A stretch of DNA of 37,934 bases from assembly GCA_004796385.1 (NCBI GenBank), contig QZLD01000295.1, positions 1 through 37,934 on the forward strand, given 5' to 3'. The position numbers were made by a program, and so were the translations under genes. Source of the stretch: Gammaproteobacteria bacterium (GTDB taxonomy: Bacteria; Pseudomonadota; Gammaproteobacteria; QZLD01). Below, in pieces: positions 12,524 through 36,220 of the stretch. Each line of letters opens with the position of its first letter. Within the stretch, counting starts at the first letter, position 1. The notes under the pieces are model-generated. The model was not told the origin of the DNA. It searched no databases and worked only from the letters and a program-made list of their open reading frames with translations.

Positions 12524-13297
12524 TTAGCTTATCGCAATAGTAAGGTCACGCCCATTTCTTTTTGCTCTGTAAAGTGCAGTATCAGCATCAGAATAAAGTT
12601 TTTTCTCGCCATCAGGTTCATACTTATCTGTGGCTGCAACACCAAGAGATGCGGTAACTCTGATTTCAGTGCCGTCATTTATTACAATCCGCTCATCTTT
12701 AATGGTTTTTCTTACCCTTTCGGCAACCTGAACGGCATTGGCAAGATCACAATTTGGAAGAAGCAGAACAAACTCTTCGCCACCTACTCTGGCGGCTGTT
12801 TCGTTAATTCTGCGAGCATTGGTTATCGCCCTGGAAACAGACCTTAAAACATCATCACCAACAGGATGACCATAAGTGTCGTTGATCTTCTTAAAGTAAT
12901 CCAGATCAATAAGAATAACAGCAAGCGGAGTACCTGATCTGTCTATATTGGCATATGCTTCTGTCAGTCGATAATAGAAGTATCTTACATTATAAAGGCC
13001 GGTTAGAGGATCATGTAGTGCCAGAGCTGCCGACTTTTTCTCATTTTTGCCCACATATGCGGTGAAAATGGTAAATATGAGAAGAGAGCATAAAAACATA
13101 TAGGAATAAAGAGGTAAGTTATCAATAAACTCAGCAGAAAATGGTTTATTAAAAAATAAAATCTTTATTATTAACCAGCCGAAAGGTGTAACTATTGAGC
13201 ATAAAAAAACCAGCGCCGATTTTTTAAATATTGAACTGGGTTTATGCCACGCAGCTTGATGTGACTCAACAGCGGTTTGAGTATCTTCCTGATCCAT
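12524..13297 (-). CDS. Membrane diguanylate cyclase (GGDEF) with degenerate I-site
   Basis: This 257-residue protein has a cytoplasmic N-terminus, two transmembrane helices (about 28-49 and 63-82) and a GGDEF domain (about 93-257). Key motifs are DPLTGLYNVRYF, DLDYFKKINDTYGHPVGD and GGEEF at 172-176, so it should be an active cyclic di-GMP synthase. The inhibitory RxxD site is replaced by RINE at 163-166, so product inhibition may be weak or absent. The short loop between the two helices (about 50-62) leaves little periplasmic sensor. It is transcribed leftward, divergent from ackA. Confidence 0.9.
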   Translation of the reverse strand: MDQEDTQTAVESHQAAWHKPSSIFKKSALVFLCSIVTPFGWLIIKILFFNKPFSAEFIDNLPLYSYMFLCSLLIFTIFTAYVGKNEKKSAALALHDPLTGLYNVRYFYYRLTEAYANIDRSGTPLAVILIDLDYFKKINDTYGHPVGDDVLRSVSRAITNARRINETAARVGGEEFVLLLPNCDLANAVQVAERVRKTIKDERIVINDGTEIRVTASLGVAATDKYEPDGEKKLYSDADTALYRAKRNGRDLTIAIS

Positions 13298-14912: not shown

Positions 14913-15971
14913 ATGAGTAGCGAAACAGAAAAAAAGATAAATTTGCTTGATCTTGATAGAGAAGGGCTTGCCTCTTTTTTTAAAAAGATTGGTGAAAAGC
15001 CTTATCGTGTCACACAGATAATGAAGTGGATATATCATCGCTCCATAGTCGATTTTGATCAGATGACGGATATCAGCAAAAAGACCAGAGACCATTTGAA
15101 AACTATCGCAACCATGGATATGCCGCAGGTTGAAAAAGAGCAGCTTTCCAGAGATGGTACCAGAAAATGGTTGTTGCGAATGGATGATAACGCAGTTGTA
15201 GAGATGGTTTTTATTCCGACAGATGATAGAGGAACGCTCTGTGTTTCGACTCAGGTTGGTTGTAAACTCGGTTGTGCATTTTGTGCAACAGCGCGTTTGG
15301 GATTTCAGCGTAATTTATCTGCCGCAGAGATAATTTCTCAAGTATGGCTGGCGCGAGCATGTTTGGAAAAGACCGATAATGTTAATGTCGGAATTACCAA
15401 TGTTGTACTTATGGGAATGGGAGAACCCCTTCTCAATTTTCAAAACACCATAGCCGCAACAAATCTTATGATGGATGATCTGGCATTTAAACTATCCAAA
15501 AGAAGAGTAACAATAAGTACATCAGGTATTGTTCCGGAAATATATCGTTTGAAGGAGCATACAGATGTTAGCTTGGCAGTATCCCTGCACGCGCCGGATA
15601 ATCAAATTCGCAATAAAATAATGCCGGTTAATAAACAGTACCCTATAGAAGAGTTGATCCCTGCCTGTAAAAACTATATAGCAGGAAGTACTCACAGAAC
15701 AATAACCTGGGAATATGTTCTTATTGCCGGAATAAATGATTCTCCTGAGCACGCAAAGAAATTGATTAAACTGATTAAGGGAGTACCATCAAAAATAAAT
15801 CTTATTCCATTTAACTCATTTCATGGTTGCGGAATGAAAGAGCCGACGGCGAAGACAGTCGACAGATTTGCAGAAGTTATCTACAAATCCGGACTTACAG
15901 TGACAGTAAGGAAATCAAGAGGAGATGATATTGATGCAGCTTGCGGACAGTTGGCCGCAAAAAATGATTGA
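14913..15971 (+). CDS. rlmN: Dual-specificity 23S rRNA A2503 / tRNA A37 methyltransferase RlmN
   Basis: RlmN is a radical SAM enzyme that methylates C2 of A2503 in 23S rRNA and A37 of some tRNAs. The 352-residue protein has the cluster motif C117-x3-C121-x2-C124 (CKLGCAFC). It also has the two mechanistic cysteines expected of RlmN: Cys110 (GTLC, seven residues before the cluster) and Cys344 (DIDAACGQL). Further family motifs are MGMGEPLLNF, SLHAPDN and GINDSPEHA. It opens the conserved rlmN-pilW-rodZ-hisS block. The Shine-Dalgarno sequence is weak. Confidence 0.96.
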   Translation: MSSETEKKINLLDLDREGLASFFKKIGEKPYRVTQIMKWIYHRSIVDFDQMTDISKKTRDHLKTIATMDMPQVEKEQLSRDGTRKWLLRMDDNAVVEMVFIPTDDRGTLCVSTQVGCKLGCAFCATARLGFQRNLSAAEIISQVWLARACLEKTDNVNVGITNVVLMGMGEPLLNFQNTIAATNLMMDDLAFKLSKRRVTISTSGIVPEIYRLKEHTDVSLAVSLHAPDNQIRNKIMPVNKQYPIEELIPACKNYIAGSTHRTITWEYVLIAGINDSPEHAKKLIKLIKGVPSKINLIPFNSFHGCGMKEPTAKTVDRFAEVIYKSGLTVTVRKSRGDDIDAACGQLAAKND

Positions 15972-16086
15972 GATCGGATTGGTTTTTTAACTACTGGCAT
16001 AGAGGATAATTTGCTATTCTTACAGCGAATATTCCACAAGTCACAGATACAGAGAAACGGGAAAGTAAAGCAAAGGGGTGGAGCAA

Positions 16087-16857
16087 ATGTTACATGGTGT
16101 AAAGTTTTATTGGATTATTTTAGTTGCGTTATTTGTTGTTTCAGGTTGTGATACTCAGCCGCCGCGTGAAGAGCCGACAAGCGGAATACTTAAAGCGGCA
16201 GAGATTAATGCGAAACTGGGAATAGCCTATCTTAAAGAAGGTAAGGTCGAAGTGGCAAAAAAGAAGTTTGCCAAGGCGTACAGACAAAATCCCGATTCAG
16301 TAAGTGTAAATACAGGCATGGGAGTTCTTTTTGAAAGACTTGATGATATAGAAAAGGCAGAAGAACACTACAAAAGAGCTGTAGATCTTGAAGGAGAACA
16401 AAATGCCTCTAATGCACATAATAATTATGCCAGTTTTTTATGTGGCAAAAAAAGATATAAAGAGGCCGATCGCCTGTTTATGCTGGCAGCAGAAAACCGA
16501 ATGTATGCCAACAGAGAAATTTCATTAACAAATTCAGGCTTATGTGCTTTTCAGCAAGGAGATAAAGACAAGGCAGAATCACGTTTTCGATACGCTCTTT
16601 CCGTTAATAAAAATTATGCTCCGGCGTTGCAGCAGATGTGTATGATAAGTTTTAATAAAAAAGTATATAAGCTGGCGAAGAGGTATCTGGATAGATGTAT
16701 GGGAACGGGTATGAAAAATCTGGAGATTGTTTACCTTGGATATATGATAGAAAGTAAACTTGGAAATGATTTTGAAAAAAGAAAATATGCAGGGATGTTG
16801 AAAAGCCTCTATCCGGATTCAAAAGAGGCATTCAAAGTATATCAGGATGAAGAATGA
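16087..16857 (+). CDS. pilW: Type IV pilus biogenesis/stability lipoprotein PilW (PilF)
   Basis: PilW/PilF is an outer-membrane lipoprotein pilotin needed for assembly of the PilQ secretin in type IV pili. The 256-residue product has a signal peptide ending in a lipobox (VVSGC followed by DTQPP) and then five to six TPR units (e.g. AKLGIAYLKEGKVEVAKKKFAKAY, NTGMGVLFERLDDIEKAEEHYKRAV). The ATG at 16087 is preferred, with AGGGG 8 nt upstream; a GTG at 16078 would add three residues. The position between rlmN and rodZ is the standard one for this gene in gammaproteobacteria. rodZ begins at its stop codon, so the two are translationally coupled. Confidence 0.9.
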   Translation: MLHGVKFYWIILVALFVVSGCDTQPPREEPTSGILKAAEINAKLGIAYLKEGKVEVAKKKFAKAYRQNPDSVSVNTGMGVLFERLDDIEKAEEHYKRAVDLEGEQNASNAHNNYASFLCGKKRYKEADRLFMLAAENRMYANREISLTNSGLCAFQQGDKDKAESRFRYALSVNKNYAPALQQMCMISFNKKVYKLAKRYLDRCMGTGMKNLEIVYLGYMIESKLGNDFEKRKYAGMLKSLYPDSKEAFKVYQDEE

Positions 16858-16858
16858 T

Positions 16859-17890
16859 ATGAAAAAAGATAACAGAGACGAGTATATTGCGCCTAAACTT
16901 GAGCAGGAGAGCGCATCTCAGGCTACGATAGATTTTGGGCCGGGACAGGTTTTGGCAGATGCCAGAGTTGCAAAAGGGATAACCATAGAGACGGTTGCAG
17001 CAGAGCTTAATGTGACCGAGAAAGTCATTAATGCTCTTGAGCGAGATGATTATGAAGGATTGCCTCCACCTATTTTTGTTCGGGGTTATCTGCGTAATTA
17101 TGCCAATTTTATTGGTGTAAGTGCCGAAGATGTTTTGGAAAAACATACAGGTCTGACATCAGCATCAATAGAGCCGACTTCGAGCAAAAAACTTAAGGCC
17201 AGAAGTAAAAACGCAGTAAAGAACAAAGGCTCGGATAAATCGGCAATTTTTATAGTTATTCTGCTTTTGGCAGTACTTGCAGGGCTTGGTTATTTTAGTT
17301 GGATTAATTGGGGCGATAAAATTGTTGAAATATTTCCGTTTTTGCAACAACAAGAGCAGCCGCCAAATAATGCGGAAACATCCGAAGATATAGATTCAAC
17401 GGATGCAGATAGCGAAAGTCAGCAAATTTCGGTTTTGGAAGATCCATTGAGTACAAAAATTGTTGAAGAAGAATCGTTGCCGCAACCGATAGGTGATTCG
17501 GAATCACAAAACAGAGAAGAAAATGGACAGGAATCATCTGAGTCAGGGGCGCAAGAATCGGAAAATGATAGTAGTGATTCCCAGGCTCAGGAAGGCAATG
17601 GGAGTGTTGATGCAACTGAAACAGAGGGGAATGGTCTTATTGCAGCAAGTACTCAGCGTGAAATAATGCTGAAATTTTCCGGAAAGTCATATGTTTACGT
17701 TCGTGATGCTGCAAAAAAAGTATTTGCAAACCGTGTTTATAATAACGGAGAAACAAAGAGAATTACAGCAGAGCCTCCTGTGCATATTCGTCTGGGAGAC
17801 CCTACCAAAGTGAATATAATCTACAATGGTTTGGATTATGATATGGGCGAAATAGAAGCTCGTGTGCCAAAAAACATTGAGCTTAAGTAA
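16859..17890 (+). CDS. rodZ: Cytoskeletal protein RodZ
   Basis: RodZ links MreB filaments to the membrane and sets rod shape. An N-terminal helix-turn-helix domain (about 20-90) begins GQVLADARVAKGITIETVAAELNV and contains RDDYEGLPPPIFVRGYLRNYA. A transmembrane helix follows (IFIVILLLAVLAGLGYF, about 128-148), then a long Ser/Glu/Gln-rich periplasmic linker (about 155-260), and a C-terminal DUF4115 beta domain (IMLKFSGKSYVYVRDA). ATG 16859 lies 1 bp after the pilW stop and has GAAG upstream; an overlapping ATG at 16847 is possible and would add four residues. In E. coli ispG follows rodZ; here hisS follows directly. Confidence 0.93.
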   Translation: MKKDNRDEYIAPKLEQESASQATIDFGPGQVLADARVAKGITIETVAAELNVTEKVINALERDDYEGLPPPIFVRGYLRNYANFIGVSAEDVLEKHTGLTSASIEPTSSKKLKARSKNAVKNKGSDKSAIFIVILLLAVLAGLGYFSWINWGDKIVEIFPFLQQQEQPPNNAETSEDIDSTDADSESQQISVLEDPLSTKIVEEESLPQPIGDSESQNREENGQESSESGAQESENDSSDSQAQEGNGSVDATETEGNGLIAASTQREIMLKFSGKSYVYVRDAAKKVFANRVYNNGETKRITAEPPVHIRLGDPTKVNIIYNGLDYDMGEIEARVPKNIELK

Positions 17891-17914
17891 TTAATCGAAA
17901 AAGAGAGAAAATCA

Positions 17915-19183
17915 TTGAGCAAAAAGATTCAGGGGATCAGAGGGATGAACGACTGTCTGCCGGAACAGACATACATTTGGCAGTTTCTTGAAGAAAAAAT
18001 AAAGAAAGTTTTGGATAGTTACTGTTATAAAGAAATACGTTTTCCCATTGTTGAAAAAACAGCTCTTTTTACTCGCTCTATTGGAGAGGTTACCGATATA
18101 GTGGAAAAAGAGATGTACACATTTGAAGACAGAAACGGCGAAAGTCTTTCGCTGAGACCGGAAGGAACAGCTGGTTGTGTTCGTGCCTGTATAGAGAACG
18201 GATTATTGCATAATCAGCAGCAAAAGCTTTGGTATAAGGGACAGATGTTTCGTTACGAAAAGCCGCAAAAAGGACGTTATCGCCAGTTTAATCAGATAGG
18301 AATCGAAACATATGGCATAGCAGATGCAGATGCAGATGCAGAGGTTATACTTTTATCTGCAGATTTCTGGAGAACAATAGGACTTACCGATGTAGAGTTA
18401 CAGATAAACTCTCTTGGAGATGAACAGTCCAGAGCAAAATACAGAGAAGTTCTGGTAGAGTACTTTAGAAATAGCTATGAGCTGCTTGATGAAGACAGCA
18501 AACGCAGATTAGAGAAAAACCCGTTGCGAATCCTTGATAGTAAAAATCCTGAGATGGCGGATCTGGTAAAAAATGCTCCGAATCTTCTTGAATATCTTGA
18601 TGAAGAATCAGAACGACACTTTCAAAGAGTGCAGGAGTATCTGAATGCGGCCGGGATTAGCTATGTAGTAAATCCCCGGTTGGTTCGTGGTCTTGACTAT
18701 TACAATCGCACCGTATTTGAGTGGGTAACGACAAAGCTTGGCGCTCAGGGGACGGTTTGTGCCGGTGGTAGATATGATGGTCTTGTTGAGCAGATTGGCG
18801 GCAGGGCAACTCCTGCTGTCGGATTTGCTATTGGGGTTGAGCGAATCATTGCCCTTTTAGAGGTATGTGGAGTGGAAATTTCTTCAAAATTACCCAATGT
18901 CTACATTGTTTCACTTGGCGATAAAGGCCAGGAACAGGCTTTTTCAGTGTCATCTATTCTTCGCAATGAAATAGACGGAATAACAATTATGCAAAACAGC
19001 GGGGGCGGTAGTTTTAAATCACAATTTAAAAAAGCAGATAAGAGTGGAGCAGGTATAGCATTAGTTATAGGTGAAGATGAAGTTGAAAAAGGGATTGTTG
19101 GTTTAAAGTATCTGCGCGAAAAAAGAGAGCAGGAAACAGTTTCTGTCTCAGAGATAGTTAGCAGGATGAGGGAACTAATATAA
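17915..19183 (+). CDS. hisS: Histidine--tRNA ligase
   Basis: HisRS charges tRNA-His. The 422-residue class II synthetase begins SKKIQGIRGMNDCLPEQ, which matches the family start, so the TTG at 17915 is the start despite being a rare codon; the next ATG would remove conserved residues. Motif 2 is in LRPEGTAGCVRA, the HisA signature is RGLDYYNRTVFEW, and motif 3 is VGFAIGVERI. The C-terminal anticodon-binding domain occupies about 325-422. A tandem hexanucleotide (GCAGAT three times, 18320-18337) encodes ADADADA without changing length noticeably. It follows rodZ by 24 bp. Confidence 0.97.
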   Translation: MSKKIQGIRGMNDCLPEQTYIWQFLEEKIKKVLDSYCYKEIRFPIVEKTALFTRSIGEVTDIVEKEMYTFEDRNGESLSLRPEGTAGCVRACIENGLLHNQQQKLWYKGQMFRYEKPQKGRYRQFNQIGIETYGIADADADAEVILLSADFWRTIGLTDVELQINSLGDEQSRAKYREVLVEYFRNSYELLDEDSKRRLEKNPLRILDSKNPEMADLVKNAPNLLEYLDEESERHFQRVQEYLNAAGISYVVNPRLVRGLDYYNRTVFEWVTTKLGAQGTVCAGGRYDGLVEQIGGRATPAVGFAIGVERIIALLEVCGVEISSKLPNVYIVSLGDKGQEQAFSVSSILRNEIDGITIMQNSGGGSFKSQFKKADKSGAGIALVIGEDEVEKGIVGLKYLREKREQETVSVSEIVSRMRELI

Positions 19184-19333
19184 AACAACCTTATCGAAGT
19201 AAAAGTTTTTTGACTTGAAAAAAAACTGCTTTTGCATGAATATACCCGGTTCTGAAATAGTGCGAAAAAACATCGTTAGAATAAAATTGAACAAATTAAA
19301 AACTAATGGTTCTTAGTGTTTAAGGAGAAAAAA

Positions 19334-20023
19334 GTGGCAGAATTACTTACAGAAGAAGAACAGGTTGAGCTGATAAAAGAGTGGTGGAAGAAAAACGGAA
19401 CCTCCGTTATCGTTGCCATATTTGTAGCGGTAGCTGCAATATATGGTTATCAATATTGGCAAAAAAGCAAGATTGAAAAAAGTGCAGCAGCCATGCAGGA
19501 ATACTACGAGCAAACGGAAAAGCTTAATAGTAATGATAAAAAAACCAAAGAGGCAGGAATGCAGCTGGCTGAAAAATATATTGAAAAAAATGACGGTCAT
19601 AAAGTACTTAGTACATTTACAGCATTACAAATTGCCAAAGAGCACGTTGTAGCCAATGAATACAAAAAGGCAGAAGAGTTTTTGCAGAAGGCTTTGAGTA
19701 TTAATGACGACAAAAGTCTGGAACCTATTATTAAGCACAGATTGGCTCAGGTTAATTTTGCTACCGGCAACAACGACAAGGCTCTAAGTTATTTGAAAAA
19801 TCCTCCGGAATCATTCCTTTCGCTTTATGCGGAACTTGAAGGAGATATTTACTTTGACAAAGGCGAGAAGGAAAATGCCGTAGCTTCTTATAAAAAAGCG
19901 TATAGCAGCAATAAAGAGCAGAATGACAAATCAAAGGAATTGATTAAGATCAAGCTAAAGAACCTTGGTGTTGATCCTGAAAAAACCGAAAAAGTATCTG
20001 TAAAAGGCAAGAAAAACGCATAA
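19334..20023 (+). CDS. yfgM: YfgM-like TPR ancillary protein of the SecYEG/BamB neighbourhood
   Basis: E. coli YfgM is an inner-membrane protein with a periplasmic TPR domain that associates with the SecYEG translocon and the chaperone PpiD. This 229-residue protein has the family layout. A short cytoplasmic N-terminus (LLTEEEQVELIKEWWKKNG) is followed by one membrane helix (about 22-40, TSVIVAIFVAVAAIYGYQYW), then TPR-like helices with AEEFLQKALSI and NAVASYKKAYSS, and a basic tail. The GTG at 19334 has AAGGAG 7-8 nt upstream; an in-frame GTG at 19316 is not preceded by a ribosome site. It lies between hisS and bamB, as in E. coli. Confidence 0.88.
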   Translation: MAELLTEEEQVELIKEWWKKNGTSVIVAIFVAVAAIYGYQYWQKSKIEKSAAAMQEYYEQTEKLNSNDKKTKEAGMQLAEKYIEKNDGHKVLSTFTALQIAKEHVVANEYKKAEEFLQKALSINDDKSLEPIIKHRLAQVNFATGNNDKALSYLKNPPESFLSLYAELEGDIYFDKGEKENAVASYKKAYSSNKEQNDKSKELIKIKLKNLGVDPEKTEKVSVKGKKNA

Positions 20024-20030
20024 TCAGATT

Positions 20031-20070
20031 AGCGTCTGCTGTTACAACGAGTTAATTGCAGGCGTTTTTT
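20031..20070 (+). terminator. Terminator-like hairpin between yfgM and bamB
   Basis: AGCGTCTGC (20031-20039) pairs with GCAGGCGTT (20058-20066), nine pairs with two wobbles, with a smaller AAC/GTT stem inside the loop, followed by TTTT. It lies 8 bp after the yfgM stop. bamB follows within 80 bp in the same direction, so it may attenuate rather than fully end the operon. Confidence 0.7.
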
Positions 20071-20101
20071 ATTTGTTCCTAACATAATAAAGGAAACAGT
20101 T

Positions 20102-21271
20102 TTGAAATCTTCCAAGGCAGCATTTACCGGAAAAATATTCATAATTTTTACAATATCGGCATTTTTTTACGGTTGTAGCTGGTTTTCCAGTGAAAAGCGT
20201 TCTGTTGAGCCAAAAGAGTTAAAGGATATAAACGTAACGGTAGATGCTAAAGTAACAGAAAGCTACGATCTTTCCGGCGATATTCTGCGAGGAGAAGTTT
20301 TTCTTAATCCTGTAGTTAATAATGAGGCAGTTTACGCAGCAGGAAAGGAAGGGGATGTTGTTGCAATTAATGCCAATTCCGGAAATGTTGTTTGGGAAAA
20401 GGATACGGAAACACAACTTAGCGGAGGAATCGCTATTTGCGAAAATCAGCTTGTATTGGGGAGTCGTGATGGAGAATTGTTATTTATCAATATTCAAAAC
20501 GGGGATATTGAATGGAAAGGGACGGTTGCCAGTGAAATTCTTTCTGTTCCCCAATGTAAAGATAACCTGATTATAGTCAGAAGTGTAGATGGTGCTATTA
20601 CTGCCTTTGATAAAACAAAAAAGAAAGTGAAGTGGGTTTTTGAAAGAGATATTCCTTCTCTGACACTTCGTGGATTGAGTAATCCGGTAATAAAAAACGG
20701 AGATGTAATTGCCGGTTTGGATAATGGTCGCCTTGTTGCCATTGATTTACAAACTGGCGCGTTAAAGGCTGATATTCCGGTTGCTATTGGCAGGGGCAGA
20801 TCAGATATAGAAAGAATGGTTGATATTGATGGCAGAATTTCAGTTACAGAAGAGAGTGTGGTTATTGCCAGTTTTGGAGGCAATGTAACCGCAATATCCC
20901 GGCGTAATGGCAGACCTGCATGGCAGAGAAAAATATCGTCTTATACAGGTATCGTTGATAGTGTAAATAATCTTTATATCGTTGACGATAAGAGCAAAAT
21001 ATGGGCGTTAGACAGAAGTAACGGCGCTTCATTATGGTTGATGGACGATTTCTATGGTCGCCAACTATCTGCAGCGGCTGTTGTTGGAAGTAATATTGTG
21101 GTTGGTGATTATGAAGGATATCTGCATATTATTGATAAAAACAACGGGAATATTGTTGGTAGGATTAGAGCAAGTGGTGACGCAATAATATTGCCTCCAG
21201 TTGTAGATAAGAGCATGGTTTTTCTTACCGACTCATCAGGTGATTTGATACAGGTAGAGATAAAAGAGTAG
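20102..21271 (+). CDS. bamB: Outer membrane protein assembly factor BamB
   Basis: BamB is the beta-propeller lipoprotein of the BAM complex that inserts outer-membrane proteins. The 389-residue product starts at TTG with AAGGAAA upstream, has a signal peptide and lipobox (FFYGC followed by SWFSS), and then eight blades of PQQ/YWTD-like repeats (e.g. VVAINANSGNVVWEKD, LVAIDLQTGALKADI, IWALDRSNGASLWLM). Its place after hisS and yfgM is the conserved one. der (engA), which follows bamB in E. coli, is absent; a TANGO2/NRDE gene follows after 6 bp. Confidence 0.94.
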   Translation: MKSSKAAFTGKIFIIFTISAFFYGCSWFSSEKRSVEPKELKDINVTVDAKVTESYDLSGDILRGEVFLNPVVNNEAVYAAGKEGDVVAINANSGNVVWEKDTETQLSGGIAICENQLVLGSRDGELLFINIQNGDIEWKGTVASEILSVPQCKDNLIIVRSVDGAITAFDKTKKKVKWVFERDIPSLTLRGLSNPVIKNGDVIAGLDNGRLVAIDLQTGALKADIPVAIGRGRSDIERMVDIDGRISVTEESVVIASFGGNVTAISRRNGRPAWQRKISSYTGIVDSVNNLYIVDDKSKIWALDRSNGASLWLMDDFYGRQLSAAAVVGSNIVVGDYEGYLHIIDKNNGNIVGRIRASGDAIILPPVVDKSMVFLTDSSGDLIQVEIKE

Positions 21272-27954: not shown

Positions 27955-28629
27955 ATGCCGACAATGGCACAAAGGATGAAGTTATTAGCTCAGGATTTTT
28001 TCTCAAAAAACGACATGGGTTCCGAGCAGGAAACAAGAATCTCTCTTTTTATGCAGGCAATAAAAACAACCAACGCAGCCATTCTTGCCAAAATTGAATT
28101 TCAGCCGTTTGAGTGGGAGCCATATAAAAGTTTTCACAGGCAATATTATAAAGAGATTGAATTGTCTACTCTTCTAAATAAAGCTACGTCATGGTCAACA
28201 AATCCGTTTGTATATATGGAGGCAACACAGTTAAATCTCTCTTTGTGGCAAAAAGCAGACATCAATCAGTATCTTCAGGGATTTTTTGCTATAGATGAAA
28301 AGTTCTTTACCTATCTCGCTCTTAGTCATGCTCTTATGGCAGAAGTGCGATTTCTTCCGGTTCTTCCTCCCACACTTTCTTTGGATACACCGTTTTTATC
28401 TGCAATAAGAGAGATTGAAGAAGAGAATGGCAGGCAGATTCAGGCGCAGATTCGTCTTCTCAAGGCTATAGATGTATCTCTTACAGAAGAGCATAAGCAG
28501 GATATAGTCGCTAAACAGCAAGCTATAGTACAGAGCGTATTTTGTGAACTATTGGCTGCAGTATGTAAGCTTCCTGAAGAAGAGGTTGAAGAGCTTGCCA
28601 GGGGTGGAGCAAAGGCAAAAGGAGATTAA
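27955..28629 (+). CDS. Uncharacterised helical protein paired with an alpha/beta hydrolase
   Basis: I do not recognise this 224-residue protein. It lacks a signal peptide and clear membrane segments, is rich in Leu, Ala, Gln and Glu, and is predicted mostly helical, with a Trp/Phe/Tyr-rich centre (FQPFEWEPYKSFHRQYY, TSWSTNPFVYMEA). The N-terminal 35 residues and the segment from about 150 to 205 look like amphipathic helices. A perfect AAGGAG ribosome site precedes the ATG. The hydrolase gene begins 3 bp after the stop, so the two products are likely made together and may act as partners. The upstream gap has a hairpin GACGG/CCGTC (27889-27913). Confidence 0.8.
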   Translation: MPTMAQRMKLLAQDFFSKNDMGSEQETRISLFMQAIKTTNAAILAKIEFQPFEWEPYKSFHRQYYKEIELSTLLNKATSWSTNPFVYMEATQLNLSLWQKADINQYLQGFFAIDEKFFTYLALSHALMAEVRFLPVLPPTLSLDTPFLSAIREIEEENGRQIQAQIRLLKAIDVSLTEEHKQDIVAKQQAIVQSVFCELLAAVCKLPEEEVEELARGGAKAKGD

Positions 28630-29589: not shown

Positions 29590-29669
29590 AATTTAGCATG
29601 ATATCCACTGCATATTCCTGATTTCTTCTTATAAAAAGTAATAATATTGCAAAAGCAATTGCCTCTGCG

Positions 29670-29698
29670 AATTAAATGTAATAATATAACATTTAATT
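29670..29698. promoter_or_regulatory. 10-bp perfect inverted repeat upstream of the anion channel gene
   Basis: AATTAAATGT (29670-29679) and ACATTTAATT (29689-29698) are perfect inverted copies with a 9-bp AT spacer, centred about 50 bp upstream of the channel gene ATG. Its shape fits a dimeric repressor operator. It could also be an AT-rich hairpin in the leader. Confidence 0.35.
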
Positions 29699-29733
29699 TG
29701 ATTTTAACACTCTATTTTAATTGGAGTAGATTA

Positions 29734-30732
29734 ATGAGCAGAGACAGAATATCCGAGGTGGTTGTTGAAGATGACCTTCGTCTGAAGCATATGCCAATCT
29801 CCTTTTTTGCAATTGTTTTAGGTATGGTTGGTTTTACTCTGGCTGTGCAGAAGGCCGAGCATATCTACCATATTGATTATGGAATAAGCACTGTTCTTCT
29901 TTATATTACTTTGCTTATTACAGCAGTGATTTCGGTAATGTATCTCTTGAAGGGGGTATTTTACCCTAGGGAGATTCAGGCTGAATTTCATAATCCTATC
30001 AAGATCAATTTCTTTCCTATTTTTGCCAAGGTTTTTCTTATTTACAGTGTGATCTTTTTAGATCGTTCATTGATTGTTTCCAGATATTTGTGGATAGTTG
30101 GTGCCGGTTTACAGTTTCTGTTTTCAATTGTGATTGTATCTGCATGGCTTAATCGTGACCGCTTTGAGATCAAGCACCTTAATCCTGCATGGTTTATTCC
30201 GATTGTAGGGAATTTGATTGTGCCAATTGCAGGTGTTAGGCATGGTTTTTCTGAGGTTTCATGGTTCTTTTTCTCAATAGGAGTGATCTTTTGGCTGTCA
30301 CTTTTTATTGTGATTCTGTACAGGGTGTTTTTTCATACCCCAATACCGGAAAAGCTGGTGCCAACCCTGTTTATACTGTTTGCTCCTCCTGCAATTGGTT
30401 TCATTTCATGGGTAAAGCTTAACGGTTTAACTGAGTTCGATGCAGTAGGACGAATAATGCTCTATTTTTCACTGTTTATGTTTGTTCTGGTATTTGCACA
30501 GGCAAAAAAGTTTTTAAATATCCGTTTTTATCTTTCCTGGTGGGCGTATACATTTCCAACTGCAGCAATATCAATTGCCTCAATGTTGGCATTTCATATG
30601 ACTGGCGGTACGCATTTTAAATATCTGGCGATTGTTCAGTTGGTGATTTTGGCGGTGATAATTTTAATTCTGTTATTTAAAACAGTGGTGGAGATTATTA
30701 ACCAGAGAATATGTATCTATGAGGAGGAATAA
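29734..30732 (+). CDS. SLAC1/TehA-like (TDT family) anion channel or transporter
   Basis: The 332-residue protein is almost wholly membrane, with about ten helices. It starts with the TDT signature region LKHMPISFFAIVLGMVGFTLAV and contains NPAWFIPIVGNLIVPIAG, APPAIGFISWVKL and FPTAAISIASMLAF. Family members transport tellurite-related anions, malate or sulfite, or act as chloride/nitrate channels (SLAC1, TehA). The ATG at 29734 has GGAG 7 nt upstream; a TTG at 29647 would add 29 non-conserved residues. Its two neighbours are sulfur-type flavin reductases, so an anion such as sulfite is possible, but this is inference only. Confidence 0.85.
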   Translation: MSRDRISEVVVEDDLRLKHMPISFFAIVLGMVGFTLAVQKAEHIYHIDYGISTVLLYITLLITAVISVMYLLKGVFYPREIQAEFHNPIKINFFPIFAKVFLIYSVIFLDRSLIVSRYLWIVGAGLQFLFSIVIVSAWLNRDRFEIKHLNPAWFIPIVGNLIVPIAGVRHGFSEVSWFFFSIGVIFWLSLFIVILYRVFFHTPIPEKLVPTLFILFAPPAIGFISWVKLNGLTEFDAVGRIMLYFSLFMFVLVFAQAKKFLNIRFYLSWWAYTFPTAAISIASMLAFHMTGGTHFKYLAIVQLVILAVIILILLFKTVVEIINQRICIYEEE

Positions 30733-30974: not shown

Positions 30975-32666
30975 ATGAAAAAAAGTATTGTTGTAATTGG
31001 TGGTTCTGCTGCTGGCCCAAAGGCGGCATCTAAGGCAAGAAGAATGGATCCGAATGCGGAGATAACCATTATCCAAAAGGCCGAAAACCTGAGTATGGCC
31101 TCATGTGGTTATCCATATTTTATCGGCGGAACGTTTGATGAAGAGATTAAGTTGATATGTACACCGACAGGTGTACCGCGTGATCCTCAGTTCTTCTTTA
31201 ATGTAAAGGATATTAATGCCATTGTTAGTACAGAGGTTACATCTATTGATCCGCAGGAGAAAAAAATAACTGCAAAACACACCAAGACCGGTGAGGTTAT
31301 GGAGAAGAAGTATGACCAGCTGGTTATCTGCACTGGGTCAAAGCCGATAGTGCCTGGAATTCCCGGGATAGATCTGAATGGAGTAACGACTCTGCATACT
31401 ATGGAAGATGCAAAATTCCTGAAAGATATTGCCAAGAATAGAAAATCCAAACATGCGGTAATTATCGGTGGTGGCCTTATTGGTATAGAAGTGGCTGAGG
31501 CGCTGACTTTGGCCGGTATTAAGATAACAGTTGTAGAAAGGCAGGATCAGATTCTTTCATTTCTGGATCTTGAGATGGCAAAACTGGTAGAAAAACACCT
31601 CAAGGCAAAGGGTGGAAATATCTACACCGGAGCATCAGTAGAGAAGATTACAGGAAAGAATGGTCAGGTTGCTGGGGTTGAGTTAAGTGATTCTACCAAG
31701 ATCAAATGTGATCTGGTTGTCTCGTCAATTGGTGTTAGGCCAAATTCTGATCTGGCAGCAGATGCAGGTCTTGAGATTGGTGAAACCGGAGGCATTGCTG
31801 TAAATGAATATATGCAGACCAGTGATGAGAGTATTTATGCAGCCGGAGATTGTGTAGAGGTTAAGAGCCTGGTTACAGGCAAGAAAATGTTATGGCCAAT
31901 GGGTGATGCGGCTAACCTGCAGGGCAGAGTAATTGGTCAGAATCTTGCTCTTGGAAACAAAGTGGAATACAAGGGAGTGGTTTCTACCGGAATTTGTAAG
32001 GTGTTTGACTTTGTTGCAGGAAGTACAGGTATTTCCGAGGGACAGGCAGAAAGAGATGGAATAGAGGTTGTATCTACCATACATGCTGCACCTGATCGTC
32101 CGGGATTCATGGGAGCGCTGCCGATAGTTATGAAAATGATTGCTGAGAAAAACACAGGCAAAATAATCGGAGTACAGGCTGTCGGTATGGGAGATGTTTC
32201 CAAAAGAATTGCAGAGGCAGCTGTGGCCTTGCATGCAGGAATGACAGTTGATGATCTGTTAACTTTAGATTTGCCATATGCACCACCATTTTCTGCAGCG
32301 ATTGATAACTTTATTACCTGTGCTCATGTGCTTGATAACAAGATCAAAGGTTATATGAAGGGTATCAATCCGAAAGAGGTTAAGGCAAAATTTGATAGTG
32401 GCGAAGATTTTTGTTTTCTGGATGTTCGCGGGCCGGACGAGCTTGAAGAGATGCGTTTCGGTAAAGGTGAGCTTAATTTGCCATTAGGTGCTTTAAGGGC
32501 CAATACAGACAAGCTTCCGGAAGATAAAAATGCTGAAATTATTGCTTTCTGTAAAATATCTCTTCGTGGATATGAGGCGCAGTTATATCTCGAATCTATA
32601 GGCTATACTAATGTCAAAGTGTTGGAAGGTGGTATTGTTGCCTGGCCTTATGACAGAGAGAAATAG
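30975..32666 (+). CDS. CoA-disulfide/polysulfide reductase with C-terminal rhodanese domain
   Basis: The 563-residue flavoprotein has an FAD-binding GxGxxG-type start (VVIGGSAAGPKAASKARR), the single redox cysteine Cys44 in SMASCGYPYFIGG, and an NAD(P)-binding domain (IIGGGLIGIEVAEAL). An FAD-binding AAGDCVEV and a dimerisation domain follow. A rhodanese domain (about 465-563) contains FLDVRGPDELE and active-site Cys526 (AFCKISLRGYEA). This is the architecture of CoADR-RHD enzymes such as Shewanella loihica Npsr, which reduce CoA-disulfide/persulfide or polysulfide with NAD(P)H. AGGGG precedes the ATG. It may take part in elemental sulfur or polysulfide reduction or in persulfide detoxification. 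Substrate remains to be tested. Confidence 0.9.
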   Translation: MKKSIVVIGGSAAGPKAASKARRMDPNAEITIIQKAENLSMASCGYPYFIGGTFDEEIKLICTPTGVPRDPQFFFNVKDINAIVSTEVTSIDPQEKKITAKHTKTGEVMEKKYDQLVICTGSKPIVPGIPGIDLNGVTTLHTMEDAKFLKDIAKNRKSKHAVIIGGGLIGIEVAEALTLAGIKITVVERQDQILSFLDLEMAKLVEKHLKAKGGNIYTGASVEKITGKNGQVAGVELSDSTKIKCDLVVSSIGVRPNSDLAADAGLEIGETGGIAVNEYMQTSDESIYAAGDCVEVKSLVTGKKMLWPMGDAANLQGRVIGQNLALGNKVEYKGVVSTGICKVFDFVAGSTGISEGQAERDGIEVVSTIHAAPDRPGFMGALPIVMKMIAEKNTGKIIGVQAVGMGDVSKRIAEAAVALHAGMTVDDLLTLDLPYAPPFSAAIDNFITCAHVLDNKIKGYMKGINPKEVKAKFDSGEDFCFLDVRGPDELEEMRFGKGELNLPLGALRANTDKLPEDKNAEIIAFCKISLRGYEAQLYLESIGYTNVKVLEGGIVAWPYDREK

Positions 32667-32730
32667 TAGAGGTTTCCCTAAGGCAGATGATGTTTTTTTG
32701 ATCTGAACAAAAGGGGTAATGACATTCAGC

Positions 32731-32760
32731 ACAAAAAGCGCCTGAGAGGGCGTTTTTTGT
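32731..32760. terminator. Intrinsic terminator after the rhodanese-flavoprotein gene
   Basis: ACAAAAAGCGCC (32731-32742) pairs with GGCGTTTTTTGT (32749-32760) with one G-T wobble, leaving a 6-nt loop TGAGAG. The A-stem/T-tract form is typical of a strong bidirectional terminator. It separates this gene from the next oxidoreductase, which must then have its own promoter. Confidence 0.85.
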
Positions 32761-32796
32761 GGGGTTGTAAAATTAATCAACATTAAGGTGGTACTT

Positions 32797-34206
32797 ATGA
32801 AATACGAATACGACTTAATAACCATTGGGCTTGGGCCTGCAGGAATGGCAGTTTCAATAATGGGAGCAGAAATGGGTTTAAAGGTTTGTGCTATTGAAAA
32901 GCATAAGCTTGGAGGTGAGTGCATGAATGTCGGTTGCATTCCAAGTAAGTCGTTATTGCGTATGGGTAAGGCCAGGCATGTATTTGCCAAACTGGGTGAG
33001 ATGGAGCTTTCCGGAGCAGAAGAACCGCAGGTACTGAAACCATTTGAAAAGATACAAGGGTATCTGAAATACATTAACGAAGCCAAAACAGTATCCATGT
33101 TTGATAAGGTGGATCTGATTCTGGCAGAAGGCGAAGCCGGTTTTGTTGATGCCAACACTGTACAGGTGGGCGAACGAAAAGTTACTGCTAAAAGAATTTT
33201 TATCGCAGTGGGAACAAGACCTGCGATCCCTCCTATAAAGGGGATAGATAAGATAGATGTTGTTACCAATGAGAATATGTTTCATCTGGAAGAGGTTCCA
33301 AAAAGCATGGTGATTATCGGCGGTGGAGCAATCGGAACAGAGATGGCACAGGCGTTTAGTCGGCTTGGCACGGAAGTATCGCTTATTCATATGGATAAAC
33401 ATTTGGTTCCGGGGGCAGATCAGGAGAGTGGTGATCTGTTGGAGCAGACCTTTTCAGAAGAGGGTATCAAAGTTTATAACGGTAAAGGTGTCGAAAGTGT
33501 AGAGGAAAAGGACGGCATAATAACCCTGAAGAGCACCGATGGAGATATTTTACAGGGTGAAAAACTACTTGTGGCTGCAGGTAGAAAACCGGATTTTACA
33601 TCACTTAAATTGGAAAGAGCAGGAATCCGGACCACTGAAAAAGGCTTTATAAAGGTAAACAACTATCTGCAGACAACAACTCCGAATATCTACGGGGTTG
33701 GTGATTGTAATGGTCATTTTCTATTATCGCATGCAGCCATGCACCAAGGAATGATAGCTATTATGAATAGCATGATGTTCTGGCCAATGAAACGGAACTT
33801 TAAAAAATATGTAGTGCCGTGGACGGTATTTACCGATCCGCAGATATCTCATGTTGGTATGACAGAAAAGCAGTTGCAGGAAAAAGGTGAAAAATACGAA
33901 GTGATTAAGATGAACTATGGTGATTACGGCGCTGCAATTGCAGAAAATGTTACCAAAGGTTTTCTTAAGGCATATGTGAGTAAAACCGGAAAGATTTATG
34001 GTGCGCTTATTGTTGGAGAAGGCTCCGGTGAGATGATAAATGAGTGGGGGCTGGCAATACAGAATAAATTGCGTATGCACAATATTATGTTTTTGCAGCA
34101 CTCATTCCCGACGATGGGGTTTCTCACCAAAAGGTCATCTGAGGTATGGATGATGAATCGTATGAAATCACCGTTCCTTAAAAAGATGTGTAAGGTTATG
34201 TTTTAA
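32797..34206 (+). CDS. Pyridine nucleotide-disulfide oxidoreductase, dihydrolipoamide dehydrogenase-like, lacking the His-Glu dyad
   Basis: The 469-residue flavoprotein starts with an FAD motif (DLITIGLGPAGMAVS), the redox pair Cys42/Cys47 (GGECMNVGCIPSKSLL), an NAD-binding motif (MVIIGGGAIGTEMAQAF) and a second FAD motif (NIYGVGDCNG). In classical dihydrolipoamide dehydrogenase and glutathione reductase the C-terminal HPTxxE supplies the catalytic His-Glu. Here the equivalent reads F437-PTMG-F442, so both residues are gone. The tail has further substitutions and extra Met and Lys residues (RSSEVWMMNRMKSPFLKKMCKVMF). The ATG at 32797 has AAGGTG 6 nt upstream; a GTG at 32788 is less likely. 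The protein is not a standard lipoamide dehydrogenase; no E1/E2 partner genes are near. Confidence 0.9.
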   Translation: MKYEYDLITIGLGPAGMAVSIMGAEMGLKVCAIEKHKLGGECMNVGCIPSKSLLRMGKARHVFAKLGEMELSGAEEPQVLKPFEKIQGYLKYINEAKTVSMFDKVDLILAEGEAGFVDANTVQVGERKVTAKRIFIAVGTRPAIPPIKGIDKIDVVTNENMFHLEEVPKSMVIIGGGAIGTEMAQAFSRLGTEVSLIHMDKHLVPGADQESGDLLEQTFSEEGIKVYNGKGVESVEEKDGIITLKSTDGDILQGEKLLVAAGRKPDFTSLKLERAGIRTTEKGFIKVNNYLQTTTPNIYGVGDCNGHFLLSHAAMHQGMIAIMNSMMFWPMKRNFKKYVVPWTVFTDPQISHVGMTEKQLQEKGEKYEVIKMNYGDYGAAIAENVTKGFLKAYVSKTGKIYGALIVGEGSGEMINEWGLAIQNKLRMHNIMFLQHSFPTMGFLTKRSSEVWMMNRMKSPFLKKMCKVMF

Positions 34207-34312: not shown

Positions 34313-36040
34313 TTAAGCTGGATCTTCTTGTGCACTGTTCATCTCTTCATAAGATATTACAACATTGCGACCACTTTTTTTGGCCGCATAAAGAGCCTTG
34401 TCAGCTTTGCTTAACAGTGTTTCAACAGAATCTTTTTCATTCCATTGGGCGCATCCGAAGCTGGCTGTTACGAAAAAATTGTTTTCGTCTATAGTTATCG
34501 GATTATCTGCAATGCCTTTTCTTACCCTTTCTGCAACACCTACAGCTGATTCAATATTACACTGAGGTAGGATTAATACAAATTCTTCGCCACCATAGCG
34601 ACAGGCTATATCCATTTCTCTGGCATATTTCACTAATCTGTCGGCTATTTCTTCAAGGCAATAATTTCCCATTACATGGCCGTTTTTATCATTAAAGTTT
34701 TTAAAATGGTCAATATCGCAAATTATGATTGATAGTGGATAGTTGTTATAGCGGTCAAGTTCGGAGGTACGCCTTTTCAGCATCTCTATAAGTGCTCCGA
34801 AGTTATACAGCTTGGTTAAGGAGTCATGGCGCGACAGATGGTCAAGTTCCGCGATTTTATTTGTCAGGCTTTTATTAAGATTGTTAATTTCATGCTGTTG
34901 TTCTTCCAGTTCTTTTCTTTGAGATTCAAGAGTGGTGTAAAGCTGAGCATTAACAATAGATGATCCAATAAATCCGCATATCAAGTCAGCCATTTTTAGC
35001 TCATTGGCATTAAGGTCAACAACTTCGTTGAATGTAATAAGGGCCATTACGCCAATAGGTTTTCCATGATGTCTTATCGGAACTTGTAAAATGCTTCTCA
35101 TGCTAACAACCTCCATGCTGGCTTTATCTGTTTCAGACATGGGGAGGTGTTGTAGTTGTTGCACATCCGGAATATAAAAGCGGGCATTTTGAACAAAGCA
35201 TGTGGGGGTCGCTCCCTCTTTGGGGTCGGGGCGGTGCTTTATCGGAAAGAAAAAACTGTCATATTTCATCTTCATGGCAGAATATTTTTCATCAATAATG
35301 GCTGTTTGTTCAACAGATAAAACATTATTTTCGTCATCATATAATACTAATGCCGCCAGATTAAACTTCATTATTTCCAGTATTTTGTGAGAAATTACAT
35401 CGTAAATTTGCTCAGTCGAGTCAAGCTGGTTTAGTTTTGTAATAAGTTCAAGAAACTGTTCTCTTTCTCGAAGAGATTGGGCAACCAAGTGTTCTCTTGA
35501 TCTTAGAAGAGTCATTTGGTGAGAGTTGCTTAGGGTATTTGTTAATATTTTGCTTTCAGAAATAAGCAGATCAACCTTTTCTCTTTTGATTTTTGTTTTG
35601 CAGTTAAAAGCAGTAATTACACCAAAGGAATTATCATGATCTTTGATTAATGGAATACATACCATTTCAAGCATATCCCAACGATCAAAGCGTAGTTGAG
35701 TGGTTGAGTCATAAAGAGAAATGCTGTCTTTATCAGTATATATAATCCTTTTTTTACCCCAGCTATGGATAATTGGATCATTTACAATTGTTTTGAATTC
35801 AAAATCTTTATAGATTGATTCGACGCCTTCATAACCATTGGGTAGCTTAATGCTTTTGCATATTAGCGCGGATTGCTTTTCATCATATAAAGAAATCAAC
35901 CAAGCATCGAAAATATCTGCATTTGCTATATGATCACTGAAGACCTGACAGACAACCTTTAAATCCAGAGTTGTAGTTACACGTTCAAGTAAAGATGATT
36001 CTTTGTTATGTGAAGTTACCATGGAATCTGAAAGATTCAT
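34313..36040 (-). CDS. GAF-domain diguanylate cyclase (GGDEF)
   Basis: The 575-residue soluble protein has two GAF-like sensor regions (about 20-165 and 185-345; the second contains RSILQVPIRHHGKPIGVMALITF), a coiled coil (about 365-395, SQRKELEEQQHEINNLNKSL) and a GGDEF domain. GGEEF is at 483-487 and the RxxD inhibitory site (REMD) lies five residues before it. It should make cyclic di-GMP under control of a small ligand or redox signal bound by the GAF domains. The ATG at 36040 has AGGA upstream; a TTG at 36079 would add 13 hydrophobic residues. It converges on the oxidoreductase gene, with no clear terminator in the 106 bp between them. Confidence 0.9.
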   Translation of the reverse strand: MNLSDSMVTSHNKESSLLERVTTTLDLKVVCQVFSDHIANADIFDAWLISLYDEKQSALICKSIKLPNGYEGVESIYKDFEFKTIVNDPIIHSWGKKRIIYTDKDSISLYDSTTQLRFDRWDMLEMVCIPLIKDHDNSFGVITAFNCKTKIKREKVDLLISESKILTNTLSNSHQMTLLRSREHLVAQSLREREQFLELITKLNQLDSTEQIYDVISHKILEIMKFNLAALVLYDDENNVLSVEQTAIIDEKYSAMKMKYDSFFFPIKHRPDPKEGATPTCFVQNARFYIPDVQQLQHLPMSETDKASMEVVSMRSILQVPIRHHGKPIGVMALITFNEVVDLNANELKMADLICGFIGSSIVNAQLYTTLESQRKELEEQQHEINNLNKSLTNKIAELDHLSRHDSLTKLYNFGALIEMLKRRTSELDRYNNYPLSIIICDIDHFKNFNDKNGHVMGNYCLEEIADRLVKYAREMDIACRYGGEEFVLILPQCNIESAVGVAERVRKGIADNPITIDENNFFVTASFGCAQWNEKDSVETLLSKADKALYAAKKSGRNVVISYEEMNSAQEDPA

Positions 36041-36220
36041 TATTATTATCCTGATATGTAAGTAATAAATAAAAATCAACCCACATACTGATTATAGTAC
36101 AGGAAAAAGATAGTCGCACAATATTATCTCTTCAGCGTTATATTATTTAAGCTGCTATTTTTTACACGGAAATACTTAATATGGGATAATCACTTTTTTC
36201 TTAACGGCTCAGGGAACAAA

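Follow-up and report, generated by a model that had tools for sequence, protein, structure and literature searches.

The gene at positions 32797 to 34206 of the window (the whole stretch of 37,934 nucleotides analysed here) encodes a member of an unnamed, uncharacterised conserved clade within the known class I flavin disulfide reductase superfamily. The textbook proton relay of this superfamily is a His–Glu pair contributed by the partner subunit. The scattered clade described here keeps the redox disulfide and has hydrophobic residues at both relay positions, and a large sister family with a Tyr–Glu pair lies beside it. What sets the clade apart is that Tyr/His and Glu have both gone; Phe in place of His would not by itself be unusual. 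Our tentative best guess is that the enzyme, with no proton relay from the partner subunit, would use NAD(P)H to reduce a small anion bearing sulfane sulfur, the electrons passing through FAD and C47/C42.

The open reading frame runs from an ATG at 32797 to a stop codon at 34204–34206. A possible alternative start, GTG, lies 9 bases upstream of the ATG, which is itself preceded by a good ribosome-binding site (AAGGTGG). The features of the gene are as follows.

32797..34206, + strand: flavin disulfide reductase-fold protein of 469 amino acids (P0001), member of the HSFPTMGF clade (open reading frame, domains, tree)
32827..32844, + strand: FAD-binding GLGPAG, residues 11–16, with G11, G13 and G16 invariant or nearly so (sequence)
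32917..32937, + strand: E41-C42-M-N-V-G-C47, the redox Cys pair after an acidic residue; the [DE]C is common to the sister family (alignment)
33319..33336, + strand: NAD(P)-binding GGGAIG, residues 175–180 (sequence)
33922..33927, + strand: D376-Y377, clade-specific, in the interface domain; aligned to glutathione reductase residues that we take to be its substrate pocket (alignment)
34099..34122, + strand: H435-S-F437-P-T-M-G-F442, in place of HxHPTxxE (sequence, alignment)
34129..34134, + strand: K445-R446 basic pair, 3 and 4 residues past the lost Glu, common to most of the sister family (alignment)

The redox cysteines lie within GGECMNVGCIPSK, and H435, F437 and F442 within QHSFPTMGFLTKR. 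Frame and residues agree with an earlier note on this DNA, whose reading of C42-x4-C47, of the FAD and NAD motifs and of F437/F442 in place of His/Glu is borne out by the open reading frame, its translation and the alignments. All the marks of a class I flavin disulfide reductase are present: Pyr_redox_2 and the dimerisation domain Pyr_redox_dim, both above their Pfam cut-offs, the FAD and NAD GxGxxG motifs, and CxxxxC. The best NCBIfam models are those for an FAD-containing oxidoreductase (PRK06370.1-3), MerA and lipoamide dehydrogenase; the protein scores far below every one of these cut-offs, so none of the models claims it. Its nearest solved structures, by sequence and Foldseek, belong to mercuric reductases and lipoamide dehydrogenases (about 25–32% identity, TM-score about 0.88), and the AlphaFold2 monomer has a mean pLDDT of 93.7. 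In most clade members the second-strand end of the NAD(P) motif has no acidic residue, so the use of NADPH as cofactor by these enzymes is possible.

Gap-free alignments anchored on the invariant Pro-Thr place F437 at the catalytic His position and F442 at the Glu position. The clade alignment holds 35 members, the window protein included, of which 34 cover each motif; the other members are 48–75% identical to the window protein. F437 occurs in all 34 members that cover the site, whereas the 70 more distant homologues have either His (62) or Tyr (8) there, a contrast far beyond chance. Position 442 is Phe in 27 of the 34, Leu in 4, Ile in 2 and Val in 1, and is never acidic. The dithiol-type pair of HPTxxE, supplied by the partner subunit, is absent from the window protein and from 34/34 clade members; its loss is real, and stronger than the earlier note had claimed. 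This pattern rules out an alignment slip as the source of F437 and F442. A sequencing error or pseudogene is likewise ruled out, since the motif recurs in orthologues and dN is a small fraction of dS (0.18 against a saturated value of about 3, measured against the 75%-identical orthologue, which indicates purifying selection). The earlier note had also named H435 as a residue that might sit in the dyad place. In the sequence alignment it falls, without gaps, on the first, non-catalytic His of HxHPTxxE, which lipoamide dehydrogenases carry beside their catalytic His, and on this alignment we reject H435 as a replacement.

Conservation extends beyond the motif. E41, C42, H435, F437, E449 and W451 are invariant in the 34 members, R60 and R446 are each found in 33/34, and position 445 is Lys in 33 and Arg in one; positions 60, 97, 445 and 446 are conserved as basic within the clade. 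C47 is kept in 32/34, the exceptions being L126 and L127. These two read GGECMNCGSIPSK at the positions equivalent to 42–47, with Ser for the second Cys and a Cys at 45.

In a tree built by a quick method and rooted at the midpoint, all clade rows fall on one side of a branch with SH-aLRT 100. The clade is joined (support 99) with an Ilyobacter protein, a DedA/TVP38-fused oxidoreductase and Bacillaceae relatives, while 2-ketopropyl-CoM oxidoreductase/carboxylase (2-KPCC) and Gor form long branches elsewhere. A search with the Ilyobacter protein found matches in 109 of 249 sampled genomes of the host's phylum, one of them the host itself through the window gene. Thirty sister-family sequences were read (L155–L184): all have GGDC...DRA...PYPTxxE, with Tyr at the His position, and most have KR after it. 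This GGDC...PYPTxxExxKR family is widespread and uncharacterised, and occurs DedA/TVP38-fused or free. Oxidoreductases of this kind have been described as fusion partners of COG0398 DedA (PMC10127716). Like the clade, the DedA/TVP38-associated FAD oxidoreductases (nearest NCBIfam model PRK06370.1-3) and their unfused relatives have the acid before C42, CxxxxC, the Lys-Arg after the motif and the C-terminal tail. They differ in retaining Tyr at 437 and Glu at 442 and in reading D-R-A for the clade's Y-G-A; some also carry an N-terminal DedA domain. The window protein accordingly has the [DE]C and KR of the sister signature [DE]C...YPTxxExxKR and lacks its Tyr and Glu. The sister family combines Tyr–Glu with the [DE]C and KR signatures that mark the clade, so both signatures probably arose before the clade did. 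Tyr–Glu is probably the ancestral state and Phe–Phe/Leu the derived one, and His had probably gone before the clade split off. Two Bacillaceae rows (L016, L038) read YPYPNHAA, an independent loss of the Glu of the motif.

How might such an enzyme work without the pair? In glutathione and mycothiol reductases, the partner-subunit His–Glu helps to deprotonate the interchange thiol and to protonate the leaving thiolate (PMC10910545). Position 437 itself has precedents: MerA has Tyr at the catalytic-His position, and Phe is typical of archaeal MerA and 46 bacterial homologues (PMC8261052), and functional mercuric reductases with Phe there are on record (PMC4500099, PMC8261052). M. sedula MerA, where the Phe is native, has a turnover of 23 per second, and the Y441F change makes BcMerA about 15-fold less efficient (PMC4500099). 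By analogy with these two enzymes, F437 would be compatible with reducing acceptors that need no protonated leaving group. These mercuric reductases and the Tyr–Glu sister family are the nearest comparisons, and the earlier note missed both.

For the sulfane-sulfur acceptor reading, we propose that electrons would run from NAD(P)H to FAD, then to C47 and C42. The acceptor attacked by C42 would be small and thiophilic. Sulfane sulfur is its likeliest form, carried by a persulfide, a polysulfide or a comparable anion, and the acceptor would depart as a stable thiolate or sulfide that needs no partner-subunit proton. The cleft wall opposite C42 would be hydrophobic. E41 (Asp or Glu in the clade and sister family), directly before the interchange Cys, may tune the thiol, and R60, K97, K445 and R446 may hold an anionic substrate; we infer from their conservation that E41 and the basic positions 60, 97, 445 and 446 could form a pocket for an anionic substrate or provide a relocated acid. 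For thioredoxin reductase, the acid–base residue has been proposed to be an Asp close to the cysteines (PMC4960239), which gives a precedent for an acid near the Cys. The full form of this idea, in which the acid–base group has moved from the partner His–Glu to [DE]41 before C42, leaving the opposite wall free for a hydrophobic or aprotic reaction new to the superfamily, is improbable. In anaerobes that live in sulfidic habitats, the likely role of the enzyme would be to maintain reactive sulfur or oxidised thiols in reduced form, and clade enzymes may account for some of the ways in which uncultured anaerobes deal with sulfane sulfur or thiols.

The genomic neighbourhood points weakly to sulfane sulfur or thiol redox. 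Upstream of the window gene lie the following features.

29647..30732, + strand: SLAC1/TehA-type anion channel protein (domain matches)
30975..32666, + strand: CoA-disulfide/persulfide reductase with a C-terminal rhodanese domain, Npsr-like (profile and structure-database matches)
32730..32761, + strand: terminator-like hairpin of 14 pairs, A/T flanked, between the Npsr-like gene and the window gene (sequence)

The best PDB match of the Npsr-like protein is 6PFZ. A gene of this type stands directly upstream of the clade gene in three genomes from two lineages: the host's, G001 (L088) and G388 (L128), the last two with the pair 67 and 51 bases apart and no hairpin between. Npsr relatives of at least 47% identity occur in 10 of 35 clade-bearing genomes against 1 of 45 control genomes (Fisher p = 0.0008, uncorrected for kinship and completeness). 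Elsewhere, a SLAC1 gene also adjoins the clade gene at L008/L141, a CysK gene lies near it at L125, and by eye a rhodanese-like protein is encoded downstream at L132. Most clade genes are solitary and show no recurring neighbour, and only a minority of loci therefore speak for the link to sulfur. A fixed operon is ruled out by these varying neighbours, by the mostly solitary loci and by the hairpin that separates the window pair. At 27955–28629 the window also holds an open reading frame of 224 amino acids with no Pfam or NCBIfam match.

Other neighbours bear on the alternatives. Reduction of a protein dithiol partner, of the glutaredoxin/thioredoxin type or a C_GCAxxG_C_C protein, which would bring its own acid–base residue, is possible though not likely. 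It would suit the glutaredoxin and FTR catalytic chain genes that are divergent to the clade gene at both spirochaete loci (L013 4046–4675, L020), and the C_GCAxxG_C_C protein encoded two genes upstream, with an ArsR-type regulator, at L009 (4328–5004) and L066 (4264–4897). The conserved C-terminal helix residues E449 and W451, which lie outside the usual family motifs, are also consistent with a protein partner. However, the candidate partners vary by lineage and are absent at most loci. The motif makes it unlikely that the protein simply handles a dithiol as lipoamide dehydrogenase or glutathione reductase does; here the earlier note, which took the protein to be no simple dithiol enzyme, was plausible.

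A MerA-like reductase of metals or metalloids (Hg, Te, Se or As species) is a doubtful alternative. ArsR-type genes lie upstream of or divergent from the clade gene at L009, L066, L125 and L128, SBF-family transporters lie near it at L088 and L139, and SLAC1/TehA-type genes do so in two genomes; metals and metalloids are a further setting in which ArsR and C_GCAxxG_C_C genes occur. In vitro, class I flavoproteins can reduce tellurite. MerA is among the best PDB relatives, and the likeness is closest to the Phe605 (archaeal) type, for example 4YWO, in fold, CxxxxC and Phe for His/Tyr. Of the published MerA marks (PMC8261052), the window protein has the redox pair equivalent to C207/C212, as C42/C47, and the archaeal-type Phe in place of Tyr605, as F437. 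The Tyr264 equivalent is missing, T98 being aligned there, and so is the C-terminal vicinal cysteine pair: the tail reads KKMCKVMF, with one Cys only, which is not conserved in the clade. The Glu after the motif is lacking as well, no mer genes lie near the window gene, and the score against TIGR02053 (mercuric reductase) is 351 bits against a curated cut-off of 454. With two of four marks missing, no mer genes and a score below cut-off, we reject MerA identity and a role in mercury resistance.

It is unlikely that the enzyme dispenses with thiol exchange and acts, in the manner of SthA, as an NAD(P)H transhydrogenase, a diaphorase or a quinone reductase. SthA has Tyr for His and Thr for the second Cys (PMC9460512), and its loss of the second Cys is paralleled by the Ser47 of two clade members. 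This serine suggests that the Cys pair may be dispensable in some members, and part of the clade looks as if it were drifting toward a non-disulfide enzyme. Nevertheless, both cysteines are kept in 32/34 members, so the window protein keeps the disulfide and has lost the Glu, whereas SthA keeps the Glu without the disulfide. In place of the CxxxxT and YxxxxE of SthA it has CxxxxC and FxxxxF, its score against the SthA model is 265 against a cut-off of 465, and SthA is distant in the tree.

The earlier note had drawn a comparison with 2-KPCC, and thioether cleavage with carbanion or CO2 handling of that kind is highly improbable. Both enzymes have lost the proton-donating His–Glu pair, which in 2-KPCC reads F501/H506. 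However, 2-KPCC has insertions and another layout around Pro-Thr, seen in the X. autotrophicus plasmid gene adjoining 2-hydroxypropyl-CoM lyase as F501-L-N-P-T-H506; the window protein has FPTMGF, with a hydrophobic residue at 442 in place of His. In the tree 2-KPCC, on its long branch, does not group with the clade, and kinship is not supported. That no CoM pathway is evident nearby, as the earlier note had remarked, holds for the host genome (85% complete), where a CoM-transferase query found no credible match (best 21 bits).

It is scarcely credible that this is a normal lipoamide dehydrogenase with some other residue in the catalytic role: the protein has the fold, FAD and NAD motifs, CxxxxC and the first His of HxHPT (H435), but its score of 346.2 bits against TIGR01350 (lipoamide dehydrogenase) lies below the curated cut-off of 408.8, the catalytic His and Glu are both hydrophobic residues and absent in all 34 clade members, and no pyruvate or 2-oxoacid dehydrogenase genes were recognised beside the window gene within the window. 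By the sequence criteria tested, the protein is neither MerA, lipoamide dehydrogenase nor SthA.

Clade genomes are of Gammaproteobacteria, Verrucomicrobia, Desulfobacterota, Planctomycetes, Bacteroidota and Spirochaete type. A homologue within the 48–75% identity range occurs in the sole other genome of the host's two-genome family, and none was found in the other 227 sampled genomes of the host's class. Counting the genome that served as the centre of each sample, homologues occur in 14/388 genomes of the Verrucomicrobia-like phylum, 5/345 of the Desulfobacterota-like phylum, 6/198 of the Planctomycetes-like class, 2/198 spirochaetes and 1/247 Bacteroidota-like genomes. This patchy distribution suggests lateral spread of the clade gene across phyla. 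The natural series from His–Glu through Tyr–Glu to Phe–Phe/Leu, and even C47S, lets one ask which acceptors need the relay, and these short proteins with a single domain set should suit expression and assay.

Two further observations concern the window as a whole. Three GGDEF-type proteins are encoded within its 38 kb, at 304–1413, 12524–13297 and 34313–36079, one recognised by Pfam and two by sequence alone. At 14913–21271 the gene order, which hints at the class of the host, is rlmN, TPR protein, RodZ-like, hisS, YfgM-like and BamB-like, an order that is presumably typical of Gammaproteobacteria.
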